Below are positions 6,291 through 47,258 of a stretch of DNA of 64,000 nt, piece by piece. The translations under genes and the position numbers were made by a program. The stretch is from Utricularia gibba. Taxonomy: Eukaryota > Streptophyta > Magnoliopsida > Lamiales > Lentibulariaceae. Positions within the stretch are counted from its first letter, which is position 1. Each line of letters begins with the position of its first letter. The stretch is taken from assembly GCA_002189035.1 (NCBI GenBank), contig NEEC01000009.1, positions 1,984,001-2,048,000 on the forward strand. The letters run 5' to 3'. The notes beneath the pieces were generated by a model, which saw nothing but the letters and a program-made list of their open reading frames with translations, made no database searches and was not told the origin of the DNA.

Positions 6291-7590
6291 CCTCTCTCTG
6301 AGGCTTGCATAGAATTTGAACTGGCGACAGAGCCGGTTGATTGCTGCAATCCCATTACACACACTGGTCTACAGTAGTGGAGATCTCCAAATCCCATACG
6401 CCCAAAATGCCAAAGTCAAACCATGCTTTGAGTTAGAAGGATGAGGATGATTTGTTCCCAAGTCCTGAAATTTCAACTGCTCAACGTGTCTGTTTAGGTT
6501 CAATTCTCAATGATTGCTTGCAAGTGATCCGTCCGCCTCTGGCTGGCTATGAGTGGATTAGGAACATGTCATGCTCCTTTCTTACAAGGACACTCATCCC
6601 CCTTATTATCTCTTCAATACAACCGTACCATGTTTACTCAACTTCACTATTTCATATTCACAATCAAAAATCAAGTCCATTTTGTCTTCAAATATATGTG
6701 TATTGATAATTATTGGAACACATGTTTTACGTACCCATCCTCTTATTCTCTTTCATACATGATCACTTTTTTCATACAGTTAAAAGAAATTACCATATTT
6801 TTAATAGATCCCAACATTGGTATTCACTAAACACGTGATTTGTAAAATATTTACGAAACGGCCATAAATGTATTTTACATGAATTCATTAAACAATTATA
6901 TATAATCTAAGAATATTTATTAAACACAATAAAATTTTAAATACACATTTCTAAAATTTATCTTTAAACATTTTTCAATTATAATTATAAAGGAAATATT
7001 TATTTATACATGCATAATTTAAATATAATTAATTTTCACCAATCCGAGGATAACCGAACTCAAGCTGTAGGAGTCTAACACTACTGTGCCATTTATTTAT
7101 TTATTTATTTTTGGCAAGGTTTTATTGTAAGAAAGGACGGAAAAAGAAAAATGTGGCATGGTGACCAATCGGCATCTGCTCACCCTTCCATCCACCACCA
7201 CGCGCATCTCCCTCCACGTGAACCTCAACGCTTCTTCAAAACTACCGCGCGTGTCACCCACGTCCCTCTTCTCTCACCGGAGTATCCCATCACCAGGAAA
7301 CACCACCAATCAATTGAAATAATAAGCTGAGCAGGAACGCTTCGACACAGCTTCCATCCCGAGCTCTCAACCCTAAAAAAAATCTCCGTTCCTTTTCCGC
7401 TTGTGATTACAAAAAGCTGGATATTTGTATGATCACAAAAAACAAGCAAAACATGGATCATCATCGTTCTATAAATGGGTTGCTTCGTTTCTTTTTTTAG
7501 GGTTTGAAGGGAGCTGCAGTTGGTGTTGGTGAAGTGGATCTGTGGGTGGAATCAAAAGGGAAACTTCAAAACTACGAGGAGATTCATATC
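6291..7590. other. Spacer and 5' region of the MADS-box gene
   Basis: Strongly AT-rich from about 6800 to 7130, without a recognisable gene. A palindromic G-box core (CACGTG) is at 7215-7220. A CCCTAAA telo-box-like word is near 7371. The last 90 bases before the start codon read in frame with the MADS protein but begin downstream of any typical MADS start, so I treat them as leader. Confidence 0.4.
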
Positions 7591-9677
7591 ATGGGTAGAG
7601 GAAGGGTGGAGCTGAAGAGAATTGAGAATAAGATCAACAGACAAGTGACTTTTGCCAAGAGGAGAAATGGGCTTCTCAAGAAAGCTTACGAGCTTTCTGT
7701 GCTCTGTGATGCTGAAGTTGCTCTCATTATCTTCTCCAACCGCGGCAAACTCTATGAGTTTTGCAGCTCCCCAGAGTATTATCTCCTCATTCCAACTTTT
7801 AGGGTTCTTGATCTTGCTTCAACTTTGGTTGTATCTTTCTCCGAAATTTCTTCTTGTTCATGAAGATGCTCTAAAAAGCTAATCTTTTGTCTCGCAAGAA
7901 TCAGATTTCTCGCAGTCATCTAAGAACTAAAATTTTTTTGAAACGGTTGATTGTTCTCTGGTCTCAAAAAACTGTTTCCTTTAACCGGTTTGAAGCCTGA
8001 TCTGTCTTCTGTGCAAATATGTGTCTGCGTGTAAAAGTACGTGCCTCAGTATTTTACAGATCTTCTGGTAAGGTAGATTCCGTAACTGGAGCCCAGTTCT
8101 CTCTCAAGATCTTCCAAAGAAAATCTAGGGTTTATTGCTGTTTATTTGGTTAATAATATTTTATTGTTTTTGAACTGACATAAAGGATCTTGGCAGCTAA
8201 CTTGATATGACCTGTTTGTTTACCTTTTCATAACATGAATACCATATTTGTCAGATTTTTAAAGGTCCATTTTCTAAAATTGAATGCATACCTTCTACTG
8301 TCGCTAGTTCATTAATTGATCAATGGTTAATCACATTTTACACATTAATCAGTAGTAACAAAAACCATACATCATCTTCGTAACACATTTGGTTGGCTAA
8401 TGATTCATCTTATATGTGCTTATAGTATGATGAAGACCCTCGAAAGGTATCAAAAGTGCAGTTATGGATCATTAGAAGTTGGTAATCCGGGGAGGGAGTT
8501 TGAGGTAGTGTCTCACTCTCTTTTCCTTGTTCATCTGTATGCCAAAGATTTGATTTTGATGTGCGACAATGCTTGTGCCATTACTTTTTAAGACGAAATT
8601 TCTTCAGGGACTTTTTTTTTTCCATAGGTTTGTTGTGCTTGAATCTCTGGTTTTTTTTTTTTTTTTTTTTTTTTAAAAACTTATGAGTCTGATTGTGCTG
8701 CAGCAAAGCAGCTACAAGGAATACCTGAAACTTAAGGCCAGATATGAGGCGCTTCAGCAGTATCAGAGGTGTTTGTTTTGTCTCTGGTGTTCACTGGATA
8801 ATTCTATCTTCTTGATACAAGATTATGAACCACGAGACAGTTACTTCTTCATATTCTGCAGACAACTTCTAGGTGATGATCTGGGATCACTGAATCTTAA
8901 TGATCTTGAAGCCATTGAGCACCAGTTGGAGTCTTCTCTGGGCCTCATTAGGTCTACAAGGGTAAGCGAATCCCCCAGTTTAGCGATCACGCATTGAATG
9001 AAGAAATTTAACTTTTCCAATTCATATGCAGACACAGACCATGCTTGATCAACTTTCAGATCTCCAAACAAAGGTATTTATAATTGGCGTTAACTCCTCC
9101 TACCTGTGTAAGATAACATATGATTTGTTTCTGGTTCCATAGTGACAAAATGAAATAGTGAGAAGAGTATGCAAATATTCTTTTAACGTAATTCTTCTTC
9201 CTCCCTCGGATTCCTGTTGCATGGTCTAAATGCTAATGCTTTCTGCAGGAGAAACTGATGATGGATGCTAACAATGCTTTGGAAAGAAAGGTTGCTAGTT
9301 GATTTCTTTATGAATAAACTTTGTATCCCAAGTGTTCTTTTTATCTCTCTTTTTTTTTTCTGTGGTGGCAGTTGGAAGAAATTTATGCAGCCAGTCAGAT
9401 GCAGCAGCAAACATGGATTGCAGGGCAACAGTGTAACGCATTTGGTCACCAGCATCCTCATTCCCAGAGCTTCTTCCAGCCTCTTGATTGCAACTCCAGT
9501 CTCCAAATTGGGTACGAGATAAAAACTTTGCTACACAGGAATGATTGCTCGCAAATCTCTGAATGTTCATTGTATGTGGTTGTCAACAGGTGCGATGATC
9601 CAGTGACTTCCAGCCAGATGACAGGAGCATCTAATAGCCAGACTCTCAATGGATTACTTCCTGTTTGGATGCTCTGA
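7591..9677 (+). CDS. SEPALLATA-class MADS-box factor (SEP1/2/4 clade)
   Basis: A type II MIKC transcription factor that bridges floral quartets and specifies floral organ and meristem identity; it acts in the nucleus on CArG boxes. Exons: 7591-7775, 8426-8504, 8704-8768, 8862-8961, 9032-9073, 9249-9290, 9372-9511, 9590-9677, 246 aa. The sizes 185/79/65/100/42/42 are the classic MIKC pattern, with a first intron of 650 bp. The MADS domain (1-60) ends KLYEFCSSP, as in SEP proteins. The K domain runs about 88-172, and the C terminus ends GLLPVWML, like the SEP II motif. [11 protein letters not shown] and the C terminus point to SEP1/2/4 rather than SEP3 or AGL6. No defect is seen. Confidence 0.92.
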
Positions 9678-9762
9678 AAACTTCCAGAGACAACAACGTC
9701 CGACATAATCTATATCTGTTGTATGTGTATGGCATGAAGGATTCTGCTTCAGAAAGTTCATA

Positions 9763-9768
9763 AATAAA
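9763..9768 (+). terminator. Poly(A) signal of the MADS-box gene
   Basis: AATAAA 86 bases after the stop codon, at a normal plant 3' UTR distance. The neighbouring RCC1 gene ends only about 200 bases further on, on the other strand, so the two genes converge closely. Confidence 0.55.
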
Positions 9769-9968
9769 GGATGTTCTCTAGTTGTATGAATATCTTTCTG
9801 AAGCATTTGAAACTCCAGTCATTTTCATTTCGAGGACAGGTTGGTCTTCATCAAACTGTGAGCTCATGTCTTTGTCTGAATAAGGGAATTAAAGTTCCTA
9901 ATCTAGATACAGAGACACTATATCATTATACAACAACTACACAGAGATTGCCTAGAGATACAATATAA

Positions 9969-12575
9969 CTAAAACAGAATCACTCCATCTTCCAAGGAAG
10001 AGAATATTTCGCCACCATTCAGTGAATGCTCCCTGCAAAGGTGATGAATGCAGTTTAGCTTGATGGTTGTTATGCCTTCCCTGGTTGGAAAAGGGCCGTT
10101 CCAATCCTCATGTTAATGGGGTTACCTGAATCTTTCACATAGTCGGGCTAACGCATCTGATCCAGTCCTTGAAGCAATATCTTCAATCTGCAAGGCATTA
10201 GACATGTTTATGTTGTTGGCCAGCACAAACTCGCACAGCTCCTTCAGTGAGCATGCATCAGTCAACACGGCTGAATGGCCACCGCCTGCAGCTAATTTCT
10301 GTACCTCCCCGACACACCTATTTGCATGAAATTCCAATGATCAACTGCAATCCCTAGGAATGGATTTTACACGTCTTTCTTACCAATCAACCGGAGAAGG
10401 ATACCAAGCATATGTACACTTCCCGTTAGCAGCCTGTCCATAACAGTTATAGCCCCATCCATATATTCTTCCTTCCCTAGTGTAAATAAGTGTGTGGGAA
10501 TGGCCACAGCAAATGAGCTCCACACCACTGGGAATGACTTGGACTGGAATGTTCCGAAGCATCGCCACTGAGGTGTTTGGGGTGCAGGAAAAAAAGTCTG
10601 CATTTGGCCCCAAACCTAACTGCCCGACCTGGCCTCCACCCCAAGCATACAAGGACCCTTTGTTTGTCAAGGCGCAAGTATGAACACCACCACAATCGAC
10701 ATCCTTGATGACTACCCCATCTAGAGCTGCAACCCGCCTAGGCAAGAGTTCCTTGTCGCCACACTGGAGATAACAGTGGCCAAGTTGGCCCATGCTACCA
10801 AGTCCCCAAGTATAGCTGCAAAGTAAAGCATCACAGGATTTAAACCAACATACATATTTTTCTAGTAACATAGTTAAGCGAGTTAAATTACATAAATCGC
10901 ATAATTATCTTCATTTGACTAGAAGGAATAGAAAAACTATGCATCAGAACAAAGTAACGTCTCGAATTCTCAGGCTCTGCTAATACTGCACGAGATTTCT
11001 TATAGCCAGGTCCATGTGGATAACCTTGGATCTCTTTTCCTAACAGAACAACACACTTACAGCTCACCACATTCCGATATGGCAGCAGAATGATACTCTC
11101 CACATGAAACTTTGATGATTTTCACAACCTCAGGGGCCTCATCAAGGAACCTAGCATATCCATTAATTATACGAGCCCCCTGAAGACCTTCACAGGTAAT
11201 ACCTCTGCCAAGTTGACCATATTCATTATAACCTGATTTGGCAGATCAATTGGCAAAAACCTTATCATTAGATGACGTAACAGTTTTGTTTAGTGTATTT
11301 CCAATATTTCTTCTAAGACAATCTATTTCAAAGATTTAACAACCATATGCCCTTCAAGGCAAATATATAAAAAAGGAGACGATATAGTGAATCCTGGGGT
11401 TTGAAGTTTAGCAATGTTTTGTAGAAATTACCCAAGCTTGCAGCCTTCCATCTTCTGAAAGAGCAACAACATGAACAGCACCACATGCAACTTGGCGAAT
11501 GACCTAGAAAATACCACATACTTAAGCATCAGTTTTTGTAAACTGCTGATAATCAGAAAATACTCCACATGCCATAATCACGGGGCCAGCATGGAAGCAT
11601 GCATCAAAAAAATTCTTTCGGATACCATTATAAAATATGGATTAAGGAATGAATATGTCAAAAATGTATCTGTACGAGTCAATTGAAAACGATACCGTAT
11701 CTGCACTAAATGCTCCCCAGAATAGACGCGGAATATTAGAGCCCTACATGAGCAAACAACAAAAATTAATTGAGGGACTTGGAATACAGTTACGTGATCT
11801 TGGAGTTTCCACTGCAATGGAATTAATCTAATGCTATGATGATGTAGATAAAGGGAAAAAACCTCTTATCAGGATATGTGCATCTAAAAAAGCCATGTTT
11901 CTGTTCTAAACGAACCTGATTCTGTCCCCAGATCCACAGTCTCTTTGTTGATAAAGATCCATCATTTTCACGGGGCTGAGCAATAGCGGCAGTGCAATGT
12001 GCGCCGCAAGCTACCGAGATCACGAATTCAGACTGCAAACATGTGACCTTTGTGGGATTCTTTCTGCTTTCTTCAGTGCCATCACCCAGTTGCCCATAAT
12101 CGTTGCACCCTGTATCAACCCCATCAAGGACCAAAACGTAACATAAAAAAGGACTTCCATGCAACTTATGGTTTCAAATCAACCATTCAACTGAAGCAAG
12201 TTCTCCAATTTGACATAAAAAATAATCAAGAGCAATTACATACAAACCCTGCACCATATTATTCAGATGTTTCGAAGATCTGAAGTCGCGAAAAAAAACA
12301 GACGTACCCCATGTGAACAATGACCCATTGGACGCCACGGCAGCGGTGTGTTCATGCCCACAAGCGATATCAAGCCAGCGTAGATTGGGGCTACCTTCTG
12401 GGCATCCAAATAGTTCCAAAGGCAGGTGCCGTGGTATCCGCAAATCCCGTTCTTTCCCCTTCCGACCCGTTTGACCAGACTGGTTGTACCCCCATGCGTA
12501 TATCACGCTCTTATTGGGAACTTTGGGTCTCTTCGTTTCTCCCAATATCTTGGCAATCTCCATCTCTTGATACAA
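9969..12575 (-). CDS. RCC1-repeat protein (UVR8-like fold)
   Basis: A seven-bladed beta-propeller of the RCC1/UVR8 superfamily; the function of this subgroup is not established. Exons on the minus strand: 12308-12575, 11916-12109, 11696-11743, 11432-11503, 11061-11232, 10384-10815, 10126-10317, 9969-10032, about 480 aa once one base is allowed for. Repeat signatures run throughout: YAWGYNQSGQTG, GCNDYGQLGDG, GYNEYGQLGRG, YTWGLGSMGQLG, YAWGGGQVGQLG, YGWGYNCYGQA, each with a CG.H (A/V) partner. The C-terminal part (ALQIEDIASRTGSDALARLCERF) is alpha-helical. The exon 4/5 join is out of phase by one base at a G run (plus-strand 11431-11433). Translation may start at 12575 or at the second Met, 12563. 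It probably corresponds to At3g02300. Confidence 0.85.
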
Positions 12576-13259: not shown

Positions 13260-30972
<17,713 letters not shown>

Positions 30973-32572
30973 TGACCAAATGCTCTCTTTTTCACTTGGA
31001 TAGTTGTACGGACTTCCCTTCCAGAGTGTGGTTTGTACATTACAGTTATATCTCCTCCCATCAATAAAGGGTTTTTATAAAAATAATAACCTAAGTTTTT
31101 AATAACGTTCATGAATTATGATATGTTTTTTATTCCAGAAACACCTGAAAGATGTGGATTCAAAGAAACCTGATACAAGAACTTCTGGTCCTCGTTCCCC
31201 GTCCACTTCCACCAGGACAAAAGTGTCCTTCCAACATTCAGGGTTGGTGGGGATGAGTAGCTGGGAGTGAGAATGAGCCTCAAAGCACTGTTGTGAAGTT
31301 AAGGACGAGTGCTCAAGCTATTATGGGGAGAGAATGATTACAGAGTTTGCGTCCAGACCCATGTATTTGATCATTATGGCAAGGGGAACCCAAACTTTGC
31401 AAGCTTACTAATGGGACACAGGCTCTATCTGTCAGCCTCCTCAAAAACTTCCAGAGTAGACAGGTTTCCCTATTGACTTGCAGTGTTTCTAGTTTAGTAT
31501 CATGATGGTTTATGTCAGTTTTTCATGGTAGGAATAATGGTGCTCATGGGCGAGATATGAGAGCATCTTCATAAACCCAACCGTTTGTGGAAGCATCTCC
31601 AAAACATTGTTCAGGGATTGGAGCCAATGCCAAAATTTTGAAGCCTCTTTCAAGAAGTGCTCCTACTATTTCATTTATATCAGCATTACATGATGTTATA
31701 TCTATCCAGAGTTGCCCCATAAGCATTGAAGAATGGATATGAGGATGATGTAGATAACGACGAATTGGATTCACTAGGTTCAATGCCCCTTTCAATCAAT
31801 CCAGGGAACCCAAGGGGGTGGCTGATACAAGCAACAAACAAGAAACACAAATGGAAGATCAGGAACTGGAAGGTGATGAAAGCTGAATAAAACATATCTC
31901 TTGTTACTAACAATGAATGATCATGAAGCTTGGTGAGAAAATCAGCTCCATCTTCATGAGAGTGACAGTAGGTAGAAAATCTAGTCATTATTTTTTATGA
32001 TATTGCTAAACTTCTTCATGTATTAATTACTTGGACTAAATGTACGGAGGCTGTCACCCTTAACTGGGATTGACACTGTTTAAATGCAAATGGTGCTGTC
32101 CCCCACCTGATGAGCAGCATCAGTACTACTCGATTGTCGTACTGCACTACCATCTATCCTGCAATGGCATCATCAATTTGTTCTGTTGCAGCTTTTTACT
32201 GTGCTTGTTGGATGCACTCTATACACTTCAGTTTATAGAACAGTGAAATGGAGTAAACATGAGCTCACTTTTGTTTCTCTTCCTGTGAACTGTTTCTTAT
32301 AAAAGATGTTAAATGATCTCTTAATGCCCACATTTTGAAGTCACTCAAAATGCAGCCATCATAGAAGGGGAAACTGAGGAACCTTATTTATTCAGCATCT
32401 GTATCTTCATGTCATGGACGTAAGGTTTAAGTGATATAAGCAGTGCTTGTTGCTGCCTCACTTCCACAAATGGAAGAAGCTCGCTGCATAGTCGAGATCC
32501 GGCAAGTAACCGGTAAGCACACATCTCTAGGCTGGCTAAAAGAGAATTGTGATACAAATATGTGGTCTTGCT
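30973..32572. other. BIG 3' UTR and spacer
   Basis: After the BIG 3' UTR no gene is recognised. Short open frames on both strands (for example 31544-31795, minus) show no family motif I know. Confidence 0.4.
31063..31068 (+). terminator. Poly(A) signal of BIG
   Basis: AATAAA about 90 bases after the BIG stop codon, followed by a T-rich stretch. A normal plant 3' end. Confidence 0.55.
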
Positions 32573-33125
32573 TCAACGGTTGTTTATGGGTGGCTTCAGT
32601 CTTGGCCGATCCATTCCTCTGTAATCCTTCCACATCATTCTTTCAACTCTCTCTGCTGCATCAAGAAATGCCTTATTCTCTTCATGCTTCTGGCTGAGTA
32701 TCTAGGTAAAAAGAAAAGCAGCAAAGAACATAACCAAAAGATGAGAATGTGAAAACTCTACTGGAATCAAAAGACAAAACTCTTACCTTGGAGCCATTGT
32801 GGTGATACCCTTCTTCGCCGTCCTCTTCTTGTACTTCTTCTCCAAAAGAAGCTCTCTCTACAGAAGCTGGTTCATCGAACATTTGGAAAATAACAGAGGA
32901 AATTCACTGAAAACTGCATGCATCATGAAAAAGAAAAGCTTTTGAACCTGGGATGAAAACTGGCTTCTTGACTGCATCATGCACCTGCAGCAGAGTCTTC
33001 CTTCCTCCAAGAAATTCTGTTTTCACCAAGTTGCTGATACCTTGATGAAGTCTTGCATAAGTGAACTCCATAGCTAAGCAAATGAGGAAAAAACAAATCA
33101 TCCCTGAGGTACAAGGACTTCTCAT
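32573..33125 (-). CDS. RGF/GOLVEN/CLEL-type secreted peptide precursor
   Basis: A small three-exon gene found by joining frames: 32948-33125, 32787-32866, 32573-32689, 124 aa, with all three phases agreeing. The N terminus is a signal peptide (ICFFLICLAMEF then TYA and a likely cleavage). The middle is variable and acidic (EEVQEEDGEEG). The C terminus reads KDYRGMDRPRLKPPINNR and stops. Precursors of this shape release a short peptide starting with Asp-Tyr, whose Tyr is sulfated by TPST and whose prolines may be hydroxylated; RGF/GLV peptides begin DY and end PPxxN or NN, and act through RGFR/RGI receptor kinases in root meristem and gravitropism. Arabidopsis GLV4/RGF7 (At3g02240) lies next to BIG, which supports the call. 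Expression is unproven. A CIF- or PSY-type peptide is a less good fit. Confidence 0.72.
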
Positions 33126-34162
33126 TTTCTAGTCTTCTCCTTTATTCATGCCAAAACACCTGAACAAAAAGCAAGGAAATGAAACGTTGGATTCTTATAG
33201 AGCTTTCAAACGTCAGTCAAAGTTCCCGACAACCAACTATGCTCGTGGGGACAAGTAGAGCTTAAAGAAACTGATTATTAAAATAATGAGCAGAGAAAAT
33301 AGTAATTTTATGCTACCATACAGAAACCTTATCAGAGCAGACAACAGTGTCTTCTTATTGGTTGGATGGTGATCTCGAGGACCCCTTTGCTTATAAGGCA
33401 TGGTTACTATTAGGACTTACGAGCCAAGCATCATACTTGTACTTCATTAAATGCAATTTGGCTTCTTCCGTCTACACACAAATGCAATGAAATCTGATAC
33501 AACCACGAGCCTGTTCCACCTTCAAGATCGGTTCCATTGTCAAAGTAAGACACTATTTCAGAGTGGTGTGCATACATGTTTTGTATGGAAATGAATCTGA
33601 ATTTTCAAGTGGTAGAGGGGATGCTTGGACCATGTAGAGAGTCTCCTTGTGGGGCAGCTGTAAAGCCAAGAAATGCGCCGTTTCCTATTATGGATTCAGC
33701 AGAAAGTGATGTGCTCCAAATAAAAAACGATGTGTCCCAATCAGTTACGGGAACAGACATCATTTCCTTTTAACGATTGCTTTCAGAAGACATGTGCATT
33801 TTGAGTATTCACAAACGATCACACAGCTTTTAACAGCTCAAGATTCACAATCATCCAGTGATCTTGAAAGCAAACAAACAAAAAAAATCCATATCTTGCT
33901 CTGTGTAACAAACTACTGCAAAAATGTAGATCACCAAGCTGTGTGTTTGAATTTGTGATGACTGAACCATCAAAATTTCTGAAGAATGAATCATAAACAT
34001 CACTGGCGGTTAACTGTAGATTATGAAATTTGAATGGATGAAAAAAAAAAAAAACATACAGACCGATGCCAAAGAAAATTTCCACAGGGAGTGTTTTGTT
34101 TACTTCGTTAGTAATGGAAGTTAAAGAGGTTGCAATTACATGCCCGCTTGCATGCAACTGTT
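33126..34162. other. Spacer between peptide gene and F-box gene
   Basis: Probable promoter of the peptide gene next to the 3' region of the F-box gene, which is also on the minus strand. No gene-like structure is seen. Confidence 0.35.
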
Positions 34163-35449
34163 TCAGCAGACACTGGCATCGAATCGTGGCTCATAGAAGC
34201 AAACCTGGCTATTATACGTTTGGAGGGCAAATCCAGCTATCCAAGACCAAACTTTTTTATCAACATCATAGAGAAGGCCCTTTCCTTGGTTCCATGATGT
34301 AAAACAAATCAGATTATCCTGTCCGAAGCATTCAAATCTCTCGGCTGATAGCCTAAAAAGTGCTCGGAAATACTTCGGAGGCATTCTGCTCACCTCAATC
34401 CAAACCAATTTGGTATGGTCCAGCTCCCATATCTTCATGCTTTGAAGAGTACTATAGAGTCCGATTCTGCCAACTAGAAACAGGCGTTTTTGGGTTCCAG
34501 CAACAAGATATCCATCCAACAATGACCGGGGAAACTTTGCAGGTATGTGTTCCCAATGACCATTGTCCAACCGATACATCATCAAACCAAGCGGTGAAAG
34601 TGTTTCCAAGTACAACCTTGACTCACAAAATGCCATCTTTGAGGAGCAAAGGTTTACAGCAGGCATAGTTTCGTGAAGCAACCATTTGTTAAGTTTCGAG
34701 TCATACACTTCAGTGGGCAAGGATCTGTCACCATAGATATCACTAGTAGCTATAACTTTAAAGGACCGGTCCTTCCGATCGACAACCATAACCAACTGCC
34801 TTTGCTGGTTATAATGCATGCTGGGCAAGGTTCTCCAAGTCTGTGTCAGTGGATTGCAAATCAATGTCTTAAAGATGAAACCATCCAACCCTGAAAAGCA
34901 TACGAGCCCTCCAGAAGAGCCAACCAGCAAGAAGGCCCAAGCTGGGAGAAATGTAAATGGGATTCGGAACCACTGCTTAAGAGGCAAGCTAAATACTGAA
35001 CATTGAGGAGTCTGTGAGTTCTTCCAATATGTGAGAAGGCAAGGTCCATGAGAGGGTACTTGTGAATGAAATCTCAAAAAGCTCTGATCTTGCAAGATGG
35101 AATTCCATCTCTTGCACACGGAGCGCAGTCTAAATATCATGAATGGCGGAAGCCTAGCTAAGATCTCATTCAAAAGATCTTCCGGAAGCCTGGCCCATAT
35201 GTTATCTTCCATCTGTATATCTGGTTGAACAGCTTTACCAAATGAGGCTGCAGTTTCTTCATCTAGCCCCCGTGGTTTCGTTTTGATCACCTTCTGCCTC
35301 GACGGACTTGTATTTCTGGATCCAATTCGACCAAGTGGGCTGGTATTTCTAGACCCACAGCAACTATAGCCTGCTTGCCGGAGAAAAAGTTCCTCCTCCC
35401 TTGAAGAACTGCCTCTCACCCATCTAGAATTTGACGCAGCTTCCGCCAT
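34163..35449 (-). CDS. F-box protein, At5g15710-like
   Basis: Substrate adaptor of an SCF ubiquitin ligase. It is a single open frame of 428 aa. The F-box spans about residues 84-125 ([17 protein letters not shown], then [14 protein letters not shown]), which binds SKP1/ASK. The rest (about 150-415) is a beta-propeller-like substrate region with F-box-associated/kelch-type repeats ([35 protein letters not shown]). The N-terminal 80 residues carry a repeated GSRNTSP motif, a possible phosphosite cluster. The start is the first Met of the frame. A 5' UTR intron is possible: a GTAAGC donor lies near 35700 on the minus strand. The substrate is unknown. Confidence 0.88.
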
Positions 35450-41350: not shown

Positions 41351-43195
41351 TCAACCTCTGCGAGATGGCCCCTTCTTGAACAATGAATATGCATCGCTGA
41401 ATATCGCCACCAGGTTCGAGAAGACGGCAAGAACTATCATAGAGATGGCCAAGATCCTGTCTTTCCTGGTTGCGATGCCATATCTGTCCCTGCATGAACA
41501 GCCATGATTATCGTGTCAGCTGATACATCTGCGCAGGTTACGGTGGGTGTTCTTAGTTTAAGGGCTTCAGTTACCTGAGAGTAATGGCAGCCGGGAGAAT
41601 GAATCCGATGAGGACAGCAGCTGTGGCTCCGGTGAACTGGAAAGCATCCCATATGCTGGGAATGAAGTTTGCGCCAAGGAAGATGAGGAAGATGAGGCCA
41701 ATGCTGAGGGAAGCAAATCTGACATTGTCTGATGCCAGAGGCCTGGCGGATGGGAAGAGAAGGCCGTCCAAGTTCAGCCGCAGGGGAAAAAATATGATGG
41801 GGAACACGAGCATCAGGTGAGCGGCATAGCTGACGCGAACCGCATCATTAAGTAGAGAACCAAATGGGATCCCAAGATCTGTTGAGAAGTTGGCAAGCAC
41901 ATCATCAAGTGTAGCATCACCAAATAAGAGGAACCCGAAGAGGCTGGTCATGACATAAACGCTTGAGCAGAGGGCAAGAGAAGTTCTGACTACTGCTTTG
42001 ATCTTTGTGTTGTCCTCAAGCTCGTTGTCAATAGAGTGTACTTCAAATGAAAATGAAAGACATTAGCATAATCTCCCAAAAAAACTACTGTTAAACAGAT
42101 CAGATTGGTTTTTGTCCAACGAATGTCCCCAGATTCATACCATTGTAGTGGCAGATATATGCTGTGACAAGAACCGGAACAACAGTGAAGAGATCGAGGA
42201 CAGATGCTAAATCTCTAACATCTGGAAGTAACCTAGGCATCGCCACTGTTCCGCTGATCAACTTGATGAGTGAAATACCCACCATGATCACAAGAAACAC
42301 CACAGCAAGTCCAACAGATAGAGCAGAGGTGTATCTAAGCGAGTCTGAAAACAGGGACTCCATATTCAGGAAGGCTCAGAAAAAAGAATACATCATATGA
42401 TTCACTTGAAAAATCATGTCAAAATATGAGAAATTATCATAGCATGCGCACTTGTATAACGAGTTCAATATTTGAAAGATGATATCAGAGATAGAAAGGT
42501 ACCAATTCGCTTTAAACTTGCCAGTGGCGCAAATATGGCAAGAGTGGTGGCAAGAAGAATGAAAAAGCGCCCTGTCCACCAGTTTTCTCCGAACCATTCT
42601 TCCAAGACTCCAGCATGACGAATTCCATCTGATGTTGTGCCAGAAAGCACATCACCTGAAGATACAAAGCTCATTGGTGGGATGGTTGAAGAGTGAATAG
42701 GCAACCAACGACTAAGCAAAACCTGCAAGTGGAGCCTAACTTTGACAAAAAAGTTTGGTTACCTATGATAATCATGTACACTACAAGTACACCAATGTTG
42801 TTGATTAATACACATAGTTGAATCAATACCCTTCCAAACTTCCCAAATGCATCTCCCATGAGACCTCCATAGGAAGCTGACTTTGAAGTCCGGCTGAACC
42901 TAAGTAGAAACTCAATGGATGCTTCGGTCAAGAAGGCCATGATGATGATCATGGCAATCCCCAAAACAAGTCCCAAAACCTTCATCGTGGCAGGCAAAGC
43001 CATTATCCCGGCACCGATAATTGTTGTTGACAGATTAAACACTGCACCACTGAAGGAAGCTCCATTGAATTCATCGAATCCACCCTCTTCTGATTTACTG
43101 ACGGGCAACAATGGAGATTTCTCATCGGGAACTACATGCTTGTTCTTCTTTCTAGATTTTGCTTCCTTCGCAGGGCTTGAGTTCACAATTGTCAT
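41351..43195 (-). CDS. AVT6-type vacuolar amino-acid transporter
   Basis: Member of the AAAP/SLC38 family. AVT6 proteins move amino acids, notably acidic ones, out of the vacuole in Arabidopsis. Exons: 42763-43195, 42503-42655, 42141-42344, 41575-42040, 41351-41489, 464 aa with all phases consistent. The N-terminal cytosolic tail (VPDEKSPLLPV) is followed by the family signature GAVFNLSTTIIGAGIMALP at the first membrane segment, and about ten further hydrophobic segments. TSLFGFLLFGD and YAAHLMLVFPIIFFPLR are typical of AVT6. The last exon encodes the final helix and SLFKKGPSRRG. The start at 43195 is the first ATG in frame. Arabidopsis homologues include At3g30390 and At5g38820. No damage is seen. 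Confidence 0.93.
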
Positions 43196-44651
43196 CTTCG
43201 AAGCTTTACAGTTGAAATCTTGGATCACCCTAAAGCATACACAAGAAAGACCACATGGGTAAACTAGATCAGTTCAAAATAATTGTCTTCGCAGAGACAT
43301 CTCAAGAATCAAGAAAAGATTCAAACATCTGAAGCCCGTCTAAGAAAAATCAAGTTTTCAAGTGAATCTTCAAAGCACCTGATGAATATCAAGTTTTCAC
43401 AGAAACTAGCTATTCCGGAGCTTGTATCCGCAATGAATTTCACAAAAACCACCAACAAATACGTTGATTCCCGACCACTTCGTTTCCAAGATTCAAAAAG
43501 TTCCAATAAAAAAACAGGAACCAAAACCGAAAGCGCTGCGTTATGAATCAAGAACCCCACATCAGAAATCGACTTCAGGAATATCAAATGGGAAATGTTG
43601 CAATCATCACAGGCGAAAAGCACACGCAAGATCCTCTTAAATATATTTAAAATAAGGAAGAAGAGCCGCGTTAATTCACGCAACCGGCGTCCACATACCA
43701 AAAGAAAATTCGGGTTTCAGACTAGGAAACCCAGACCTTGATTATTCTTCAGGGTGCAGGCAAATCTACAGCCAAGAAACAAGCTTTTATCTATCTTCCA
43801 AGATTGCAGTCACTTAATTTTTCAGAGTTGAATCATTTGCAGTTCACCGACCCCCTCAGTGGGGATGAAACCATTACCACTGACGTCCCGTCCAGCGACC
43901 TCAGGGCCCCCTTCGAATCGCTCCAATGAGAGACTAACTCCCTCCCCTTCAGACAAAACAAGTGGCCCACAGGCCACAGGTGTCGAAATGAGTTCAGTAG
44001 CCTTTGAGCCCTGGAAGGGACGAGACGAAACTTGAACCAGTGAAAATTCTGTCCCTGGTAATACCGTACAGTAAAGTGAATCCGTCAACGTGTCTTCAAA
44101 TTCCGCATTTTGTGTTTCCCTGTCCCAAACACAATAATATTCAAATATTATATAATTTCCATGAAATATGACGAAATAAGAAATTAATCAGAAAATTTAA
44201 AATATAGACATAAATACAAAATATAATATTCATTTATAGGAAAAAAATCTGCCCATGAGTGGCTGGTAATGAAGACGCCAGCTTTTGCCAACCTTTGTCG
44301 TTTTTATCCGCGTGCCGAAAAAGATACGAATAATCTTTTAAATCTATTTTTAAAACAAAATAAACAAATAAACTATTTTGATAAATACCAAAAATTGGAT
44401 TCAAAAAGTTTGAATTTGATTCATTTATTTACACCATAAAAAAATAAAACAAACATGGGGACTTTCAAATACCAATTTGAACACAAACTCATTTGATTCC
44501 AGATTTTCCGGACAAAAAAGAAAAGTATTACAAATTTGAACATACTATTTTTAGTATATAATAAAATTATGTATAAAGAAAATATGATAATGACCAATTT
44601 TGTGAATAAACTCAATTGGGCAATTGAAGCTTATCAATATGCTTTGCTATG
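43196..44651. other. Upstream region of the AVT6 gene
   Basis: Contains the transporter's promoter and 5' UTR, perhaps with an intron. It is strongly AT-rich from about 44100 to 44620. No gene is recognised. Confidence 0.35.
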
Positions 44652-47258
44652 CTACATCATGGCATACAGTTCTTCATGTTCATCAGCTGGAGAAAGGTGA
44701 TCATCTTCTGGGATGGAGCCATCCATCTTCTTCATCTCCCATATCACCAAATCAAGTTTCTGGTATATCTCCTTGCGTTTTGGATGAGCTCTGTCTCCTA
44801 CAAGGAACATGTGCACCTCCGACTGGAGCTCGATCCAGCTGCAGCCCGGCTCCTTCTTCAGTCCACGATCTTTCATGATCTTCCTCAACTTTGCAACTTC
44901 GACCCACATTTCTGCATCTGCGTAGATGTTCGACAAGAGAATGTAAGCTGAGGAGTCTTGAGGGTCCAGCTTGAGCAGGGAGGTTGCTGCTGTTTCTGCA
45001 ACCTCGACGTTCCCGTGCATTTTGCACATACTGAGAAGGGTTCTCCAGATAACATCATCTGCACTGAAGGGCATTTTTGTTATGATGCCCAGAGCATCAG
45101 CAAGTCTTCCTGACTTTCCTAGTATCTCCACCATGGAGGAGTAATGCTCCAGTTCGGGTTCTAATCCGTAATCAGTACTCATTGAGTTGAAGAAGCGAAG
45201 GGCATCATCCACCAGTCCCATATGAGAACAGGCACGAAGAACAGCAACAAAGGTGGCATGATTTGGCATTATATTGTGAAGCTGCATTGTCTTGAAAACC
45301 TGGAGTGCATTTGCTGCATGGCCGTGGTGAGCATAAGCACAGATCATGGCATTCCAAGTAACAAAATCGCACTTGGATGACTTGTCGAAGATCAAAACGG
45401 CATCTTGCATGTTCCCACCTTTTGAATACATGTCAACCAATGTGCTGATGATGTATGGGTCTGACTGCATATCTTCTTTGATGATTTGAGCATGGATCTG
45501 CCTTCCAAGTCCAGCGTTAGCAATGTTGGAGCAGGTATCAAGAACTGCAGCGTACGTGAAACTATCAGGTTTACATCCAGCTTCCAGCATTTTAGAGAAC
45601 ATAACCTGAGCCCTGTCGCTCTCTTCATTCATTGAGAAACCAGAAATGATTGCGTTCCACGAAACAAGTGCTGGATCCTCCATTAGCCAGTGAAGTTTCT
45701 CAGCATCTTCTATTACTCCACACTTAGAGTACATGTCAACAAGCACACTTCCCACAAATGTGTCCGTTCCCATCCCACACTTGATAACTCTACCATGGAT
45801 TTCCCTACCGGAGCTTAGAACTTGCCCACTTGTACAAGCTTTCAAAACACTTCCATATGTAAATACATCGGGTTCCATCCCAAAACGAAGCATAGAGAGG
45901 AAAAGCAATAGTGAGTCCTCATTTTGGTTCTGCTCACAAGCTGTGATCACCGAATTCCACGAGACTGAATCCCTTATTTCCATTTCATCAAAGACACGGA
46001 GAGCATCGCCAAGCATCCCGCATTTACCATACATATCTAAGATAGCATTAGTCACACATATGTCATACTGGAGGGGGGTTTTGATTGCCAACCCATGTAC
46101 CTGACCACCTTCCAGATTTCCCTTGATTACTGCACAAGAACTGAGAGCACCAGATAGGCTCACTGCATCAAACCCGAAGCTTGACTTTAGCAGCAGCAGA
46201 AACAGTTCTAAACCTTCAAAGCCACAATCTGCTCTAGAATATCCAGTTATCAACGCATTGTAAGATTGCAAGTCGAGATTAGGAGAAGAGTCAAATAATT
46301 TCCTCGCATTTTTCAAATCACCACACTTTGCATACGTATCAATCATGGCTGTCACCACAATGGCATCAGCCCCAAAATCATTTTTTAATGAATGAGCATG
46401 TAATTGGCAACCCAAGGCCATAGAAGAGAAGCTAGCACATGATCTTAGAACACTTGCATAAGTAGATTGGCTTACACCAATTCCTTGACGTTGCATTTCT
46501 TTGAAAAACTCTAGCCCACCGTAAAGGTCATTATTTTGGACGCAACCAGCGATCATCGCACTCCATGATACCCAATTTTTCATTGGCATTGCCTCAAAAA
46601 AGAGGCGAGATTCTTCCAGTCTGTTGCTTTTAGCGTACATATCCAACACACCACTTCCTGCAACCAAATCATTCTCAAAACCAGCCTTGATTATCATTCC
46701 ATGAAGTTGAATGCCTAGACTATGGTGTCCTAAACCTGAACAAACTTTCAAAACAAGTGCGAGAGTGGTTTCATCATAACCAACGCCATCCTTCCTCATC
46801 AACAAATACACCTCCATCGCTTTAAAAAGATCCTTATTCCGCACATACCCTGAGATCAATGAATTCCATGATATCACATCCCTCTGAGGCATCATATCGA
46901 AGAAGGTTTGCGCCTGCCCCAGTTCCCCACTGTTTGAATACCCATATATTATCTTGTTCCACGAAACACGGTCCCGATCAGGCAACCTGTCGAACACCTT
47001 CCTAGCGTACTCCAACTCGGAGCATTTTATGTACACTTGCATCAAACAATTGGACACAAAAATTTTCGGTCGGAATCCGGACACGGTCATCCGCGCATGC
47101 GCTTGTCGCCCAGGCTCCAGAGCTTCTACATGAGCACATTCTTGAAATATATGCGAAAACGTTTTGTAGAAACGGATTACCTGAGCTCCCCAAAACCCCC
47201 CAAATCTGATGTAAAAACCCAGAAATAGAGACCTCGGCTGGAAAAAAGAGCCACCCAT
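44652..47258 (-). CDS. PLS-class PPR protein with E/E+ C terminus (MEF13/At3g02330-like)
   Basis: Organellar RNA-editing factor of the plant PPR-PLS family. It is a single-exon frame of 868 aa, as usual for PPR genes. After a short N-terminal targeting region, alternating P, L and S repeats of about 35 residues run from roughly residue 50 to 760 (motifs such as DVISWNSLISGYVRN, CDFVTWNAMICAYAHHG). The C-terminal E and E+ motifs follow (WRTLLSMCKMHGN, KEPGCSWIELQSEVHMFLVGDRAHP). No DYW domain is present, so a separate deaminase partner would be needed. From memory the Arabidopsis protein MEF13 (At3g02330) edits mitochondrial transcripts; orthology is inferred from similarity and context. The frame has no interruption. 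Confidence 0.9.
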   Translation of the reverse strand: MGGSFFQPRSLFLGFYIRFGGFWGAQVIRFYKTFSHIFQECAHVEALEPGRQAHARMTVSGFRPKIFVSNCLMQVYIKCSELEYARKVFDRLPDRDRVSWNKIIYGYSNSGELGQAQTFFDMMPQRDVISWNSLISGYVRNKDLFKAMEVYLLMRKDGVGYDETTLALVLKVCSGLGHHSLGIQLHGMIIKAGFENDLVAGSGVLDMYAKSNRLEESRLFFEAMPMKNWVSWSAMIAGCVQNNDLYGGLEFFKEMQRQGIGVSQSTYASVLRSCASFSSMALGCQLHAHSLKNDFGADAIVVTAMIDTYAKCGDLKNARKLFDSSPNLDLQSYNALITGYSRADCGFEGLELFLLLLKSSFGFDAVSLSGALSSCAVIKGNLEGGQVHGLAIKTPLQYDICVTNAILDMYGKCGMLGDALRVFDEMEIRDSVSWNSVITACEQNQNEDSLLLFLSMLRFGMEPDVFTYGSVLKACTSGQVLSSGREIHGRVIKCGMGTDTFVGSVLVDMYSKCGVIEDAEKLHWLMEDPALVSWNAIISGFSMNEESDRAQVMFSKMLEAGCKPDSFTYAAVLDTCSNIANAGLGRQIHAQIIKEDMQSDPYIISTLVDMYSKGGNMQDAVLIFDKSSKCDFVTWNAMICAYAHHGHAANALQVFKTMQLHNIMPNHATFVAVLRACSHMGLVDDALRFFNSMSTDYGLEPELEHYSSMVEILGKSGRLADALGIITKMPFSADDVIWRTLLSMCKMHGNVEVAETAATSLLKLDPQDSSAYILLSNIYADAEMWVEVAKLRKIMKDRGLKKEPGCSWIELQSEVHMFLVGDRAHPKRKEIYQKLDLVIWEMKKMDGSIPEDDHLSPADEHEELYAMM

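Follow-up and report, generated by a model that had tools for sequence, protein, structure and literature searches.

Precursors of GLV peptides combine a variable region with a conserved motif (PMC4526922), and introns are present in most RGF genes (PMC8708909). CLEL6 carries two processing sites, RRLR and RRAL, of which the second is required, and the CLEL9 peptide ends in PIHNR, which is a precedent for an arginine after the last asparagine (PMC7162652). In Arabidopsis, GLV4/RGF7 lies at At3g02240, GLV8 at At3g02242, and GLV9 at At5g15725 (PMC11534595), and BIG is At3g02260; GLV4/RGF7 is induced by pathogens and acts in immunity (PMC11534595; PMC9066070). From our analysis of 64 kb of Utricularia gibba DNA (the whole stretch, hereafter the window), we describe a peptide gene whose structure, duplication, conservation, motif constraint, and neighbours were observed directly and are best explained, with a probability of about 0.92, by a functional RGF/GOLVEN/CLEL peptide-hormone gene, which most likely corresponds by synteny to Arabidopsis GLV4/RGF7, GLV8, and GLV9.

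Gene structure and precursor

The gene occupies positions 32573-33125 of the minus strand and consists of three exons separated by GT-AG introns, with the phase kept throughout. A sequence-only reading had proposed a protein of 124 aa from the exons 33125-32948, 32866-32787, and 32689-32573, and the joined sequence indeed encodes it. The exons and the phase of that model stand, but its intron 2 acceptor at 32689 is probably not the one used: exon 3 more likely starts 12 nt upstream, at 32701 (TTTTTACCTAG/ATA), which gives a precursor of 128 aa rather than 124, MRSPCTSGMICFFLICLAMEFTYARLHQGISNLVKTEFLGGRKTLLQVHDAVKKPVFIPASVERASFGEEVQEEDGEEGYHHNGSKILSQKHEENKAFLDAAERVERMMWKDYRGMDRPRLKPPINNR. We prefer this acceptor because it directly follows a pyrimidine tract (surrounding sequence, CTTTTTACCTAG), is in phase, and aligns with the equivalent acceptor of a duplicate gene elsewhere in the genome. 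The motif is unchanged whichever of the two acceptors applies.

Exon 1 (32948-33125) begins with the ATG at 33125 and encodes the signal peptide and the start of the variable pro-region in 59 codons plus 1 nt, exon 2 (32787-32866) encodes an acidic part of the pro-region, and exon 3 (32573-32701) encodes its end, the GLV motif, and the stop TGA at 32575-32573. Intron 1 (32867-32947, 81 nt) has the donor GTTCAAAAG and the acceptor AACCAG, both identical in the duplicate; the donor (CAG/GTTCAA) is weak, and retention of the intron brings in an in-frame stop within it, ahead of the motif. Intron 2 (32702-32786) is 85 nt long, or 97 nt with the acceptor at 32689, and has a strong donor (AAG/GTAAGA) and a pyrimidine tract followed by CTAG. 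Like the intron-containing genes of the RGF/GLV/CLEL family, the gene has two introns, and both are kept in the duplicate.

The predicted signal peptide MRSPCTSGMICFFLICLAMEFTYA (33054-33125, minus strand) holds the strongest hydrophobic 11-mer of the protein. This core, at residues 9-19, has a mean KD of 2.98 (the next best is 0.90 among segments starting after residue 30), which bears out the signal peptide claimed earlier, and by the -3,-1 rule cleavage is plausible after TYA, before R. Further along, RKTL (32991-33002, minus strand) is a candidate SBT6.1/S1P pre-processing site; together with RKAL in the duplicate, it resembles the RRAL of CLEL6 and may likewise be cleaved. The precursor ends in WKDYRGMDRPRLKPPINNR, so the C terminus starts with DY and finishes with KPPINNR as had been read. 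The predicted mature peptide DYRGMDRPRLKPPINN (32579-32626, minus strand), followed by a single R and the stop, differs from that of the duplicate only by D/N, and it has the initial Asp-Tyr, the proline in the second half, and the terminal [HN]N of RGF/GLV/CLEL motifs. The precursor as a whole is made of the three parts of the family, namely a signal peptide, a variable region, and a conserved C-terminal GLV motif one residue before the stop.

Duplicate copy, selection, and upstream block

In a whole-genome search, one further copy was found in the same assembly (G000:C402:292138-292715), with 77% DNA identity over the whole length. It has the same three exons, encodes 138 residues, and ends in WKDYRGMNRPRLKPPINNR. 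Identity between the copies is 86.0% in exon 1 (a single 3-nt gap), 77.5% in exon 2 (one in-frame 9-nt gap), and 88.4% in exon 3 (one in-frame 18-nt gap), and neither copy shows frame damage. The gaps in the coding sequence are all multiples of three, whereas those in the introns are irregular (1, 3, and 5 nt in intron 1; 1, 1, and 4 nt in intron 2), which is the pattern expected of coding exons. Intron 2 of the duplicate (L002 1851-1931, on C402) starts with GC (AAG/GCAGGA) where the window copy has GT, which points either to a GC-AG intron or to incipient decay.

We then estimated dN and dS between the two copies by NG86. Over the whole gene, dN was 0.140 and dS 0.307 (dN/dS 0.46). The last 37 codons gave a dN of 0.058 and a dS of 0.526, a ratio of about 0.11, against 0.74 for the codons before them (dN 0.178, dS 0.241). 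The C terminus is under strong purifying selection while the pro-region is nearly free, and this difference matches the known layout of GLV precursors. As no exon is a long ORF, the three frames could conceivably have been assembled by chance where there is no gene; this is almost certainly not so, given the duplicate with an identical structure, the constrained motif, the synteny with GLV genes described below, and the rarity of the DY...PPINNR-stop motif, which a six-frame search of the 64 kb window found a single time and which was absent from all 200 windows simulated with the same dinucleotide composition.

A sharply bounded conserved block, probably the promoter, covers the 250 bp ahead of the start codon (33126-33375, minus strand); it has a TATA box at 33199-33194 and carries the sequence TTGACTGACG at 33220-33211. 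Identity between the copies is 90.0% in this block, which is above that of every exon, and 56.2% farther upstream. A W-box reading of TTGACTGACG, prompted by the control of RGF7 by WRKY33, was dropped, since chance alone accounts for such a match.

Family assignment of the motif

The motif was scored against 27 sulfated-peptide motifs of the Arabidopsis table in PMC11534595. RGF4/GLV3 DYPIYSKPRRKPPVNN was the best match, gapless over 16 residues with a score of 52 (none of 2000 shuffles was as good), followed among the 27 by GLV8 DYQGPKPRSKPLKNN and RGF6 DYPQPHRKPPIHN. Mean scores were 30.8 for RGF, 16.8 for CIF/TWS1, and 6.3 for PSY motifs. The PSY family (DY..(P/S)..N..H.P) was rejected on this low mean, none of its motifs beating the shuffles. 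The part DY...PRL.(K/R)PP recalls CIF1 DYGNNSPSPRLERPPFKLIPN, which also has DY, PRL, and PP, and could point to a CIF/TWS1-type sulfated peptide that is read by GSO1/GSO2 in Casparian strip or cuticle signalling. However, the alignment to CIF1 needs several gaps and reaches a score of 24 (shuffle p 0.05), compared with 52 for RGF4/GLV3, the mean CIF score falls well below that of RGF, and the neighbours are those of GLV genes. The FKLIPN end is also absent: the peptide ends in PPINNR, not in PPFKLIPN (CIF1/2) or P..[PE]H (CIF3/4, TWS1). We rejected CIF/TWS1 membership, which we consider very unlikely.

Several features support membership in the RGF/GLV/CLEL family, to which the sequence-only reading had assigned the gene: its C-terminal motif, signal peptide, candidate R-x-x-L site, exon layout, selection on the motif, and neighbours. 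The accompanying doubt, that an unusual DY-PP spacing and an extra DRPRL might mark a divergent member, is unfounded since long forms occur in the family: the 16-residue spacing of RGF4/GLV3 is identical to that seen here, and GLV8 and GLV9 are long as well. Scans of the precursor against Pfam and NCBIfam, libraries which may contain no RGF/GLV model, gave nothing above cut-off; a PDB sequence search with the precursor gave chance-level matches only, and an exact text search for motif-core strings such as KPPINN found no peptide paper.

Across the genome, the pattern KPP[IVM][HN]N had 8 matches and its reversed control 7, and the match count alone therefore carries no meaning. Half of the 8 have an in-frame upstream DY, namely the window gene, its duplicate, and two loci, L006 (DYSEAKRKPPIHN) and L011 (DYSAAKRKPPIHN); the remaining matches looked like chance or proline-rich repeats. 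The motifs at L006 and L011 are canonical 13-residue GLV motifs with the stop directly after them and resemble the tomato SlRGF2 form.

Genomic neighbourhood

In the window, the peptide gene is flanked by both a BIG homologue and an F-box gene like At5g15710. The 3' part of the BIG/UBR4-like gene (14029-31686, plus strand, end approximate) is convergent with the peptide gene and contains a UBR4 domain (Pfam, 2.1e-34), a ZZ finger (1.1e-9), and E3_UbLigase_R4 (8.1e-98), and these domains confirm the placement next to BIG proposed earlier. On the other side lies the F-box/kelch gene (34163-35449, minus strand; Pfam F-box 5.3e-11). Primers published for qPCR of the At5g15710 homologue in N. benthamiana, with a product of 127 bp (PMC3460881), map facing each other at 34372-34498, which is exactly 127 bp, with 5 mismatches each. 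Farther along the window, 41351-43970 has 78% identity to the duplicated C402 block and is probably another retained gene pair, and 44652-47258 encodes an intronless pentatricopeptide-repeat protein of 868 aa with E and E+ motifs.

Going by locus numbers, Arabidopsis has GLV genes beside BIG in one region and GLV9 beside the F-box gene in another. With adjacency in Arabidopsis read in this way, the peptide gene appears to correspond by synteny to GLV4/GLV8/GLV9 and is probably their orthologue. The simplest reading would be one ancestral block with the F-box gene, a GLV gene, and BIG in that order, which was duplicated and thinned in Arabidopsis. More tentatively, and with somewhat less than even odds, the 16-residue DY-x9-PP form at one locus between the F-box gene and BIG may be ancestral, with GLV4, GLV8, and GLV9 derived from it by duplication, both of blocks and in tandem, and by shortening of the motif; if true, three scattered genes become one lineage.

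The C402 block is a second copy of this neighbourhood. The peptide gene has been kept there, as has the F-box gene (protein identity 93%, dN 0.035, dS 0.478), but BIG survives only in pieces within the stretch examined. Its BIG copy (L004, G000:C402:294000-302000) matches the window gene only at 7315-9984 and 29649-31475 and lacks a large internal stretch, which suggests the loss of one copy of BIG after the duplication. This deletion, the GC donor of the duplicate, and the overall dN/dS of 0.46 would also suit a pseudogene, a non-functional GLV remnant left by genome duplication. Such a remnant is very unlikely, though less so than chance assembly, as both reading frames are undamaged with every coding gap a multiple of three, the motif codons are strongly constrained, and the 250-bp upstream block is kept at 90%.

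Predicted maturation and comparison with known peptides

For a functional GLV gene, processing, sulfation, and perception can be sketched by analogy with the family. The 128-aa precursor would enter the ER and secretory pathway through its signal peptide, and the pro-region would probably be cut at RKTL/RKAL by an SBT6.1/S1P-type subtilase. Tyrosylprotein sulfotransferase would sulfate the tyrosine of DY in the Golgi, a cut before DY may be made by an aspartate-dependent subtilase such as SBT3.8, and trimming of the trailing Arg would leave the peptide of about 16 residues. Proline hydroxylation is a further modification in the family that the mature peptide may carry. Its presumed receptors are the RGI/RGFR leucine-rich-repeat receptor kinases with SERK co-receptors. 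An immune role like that of GLV4/RGF7 is a guess from the same analogy. If expressed, the gene would serve as a clear-cut syntenic marker of the branch formed by GLV4, GLV8, and GLV9, whose member GLV4 is tied to immunity in Arabidopsis, and it offers a concrete 16-residue peptide for synthesis and testing.

In essence, the gene is an ordinary member of a known peptide family and represents no new signal class. RGF4/GLV3 (AT3G30350) has DY, PR, KPP, and NN at the same positions and an equal motif length of 16 residues; the comparison covered the motif and the precursor length, which is 180 aa for RGF4/GLV3 (PMC11534595) against 128 here. CIF1/CIF2 share the DY start, PRL/PKL, and PP but differ in the FKLIPN C terminus, are longer, and align with gaps. 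RGF7/GLV4 (AT3G02240) and GLV8/CLEL5 (AT3G02242), with precursors of 102 and 111 aa (PMC11534595), lie near BIG (AT3G02260) like the window gene, although they are two genes in Arabidopsis where the window has one. The GLV4 motif is the 13-residue DYGQRKYKPPVHN, unlike the 16 residues here, whereas that of GLV8 is long, with PR..KP..NN, like the window peptide. GLV9 (AT5G15725), which by locus number adjoins the F-box gene AT5G15710, also has a 16-residue motif, EYPSPVKPRKRTPVHN, but differs in its EY start and in RTP in place of KPP; GLV8 and GLV9 are both long forms with KPR in the middle.
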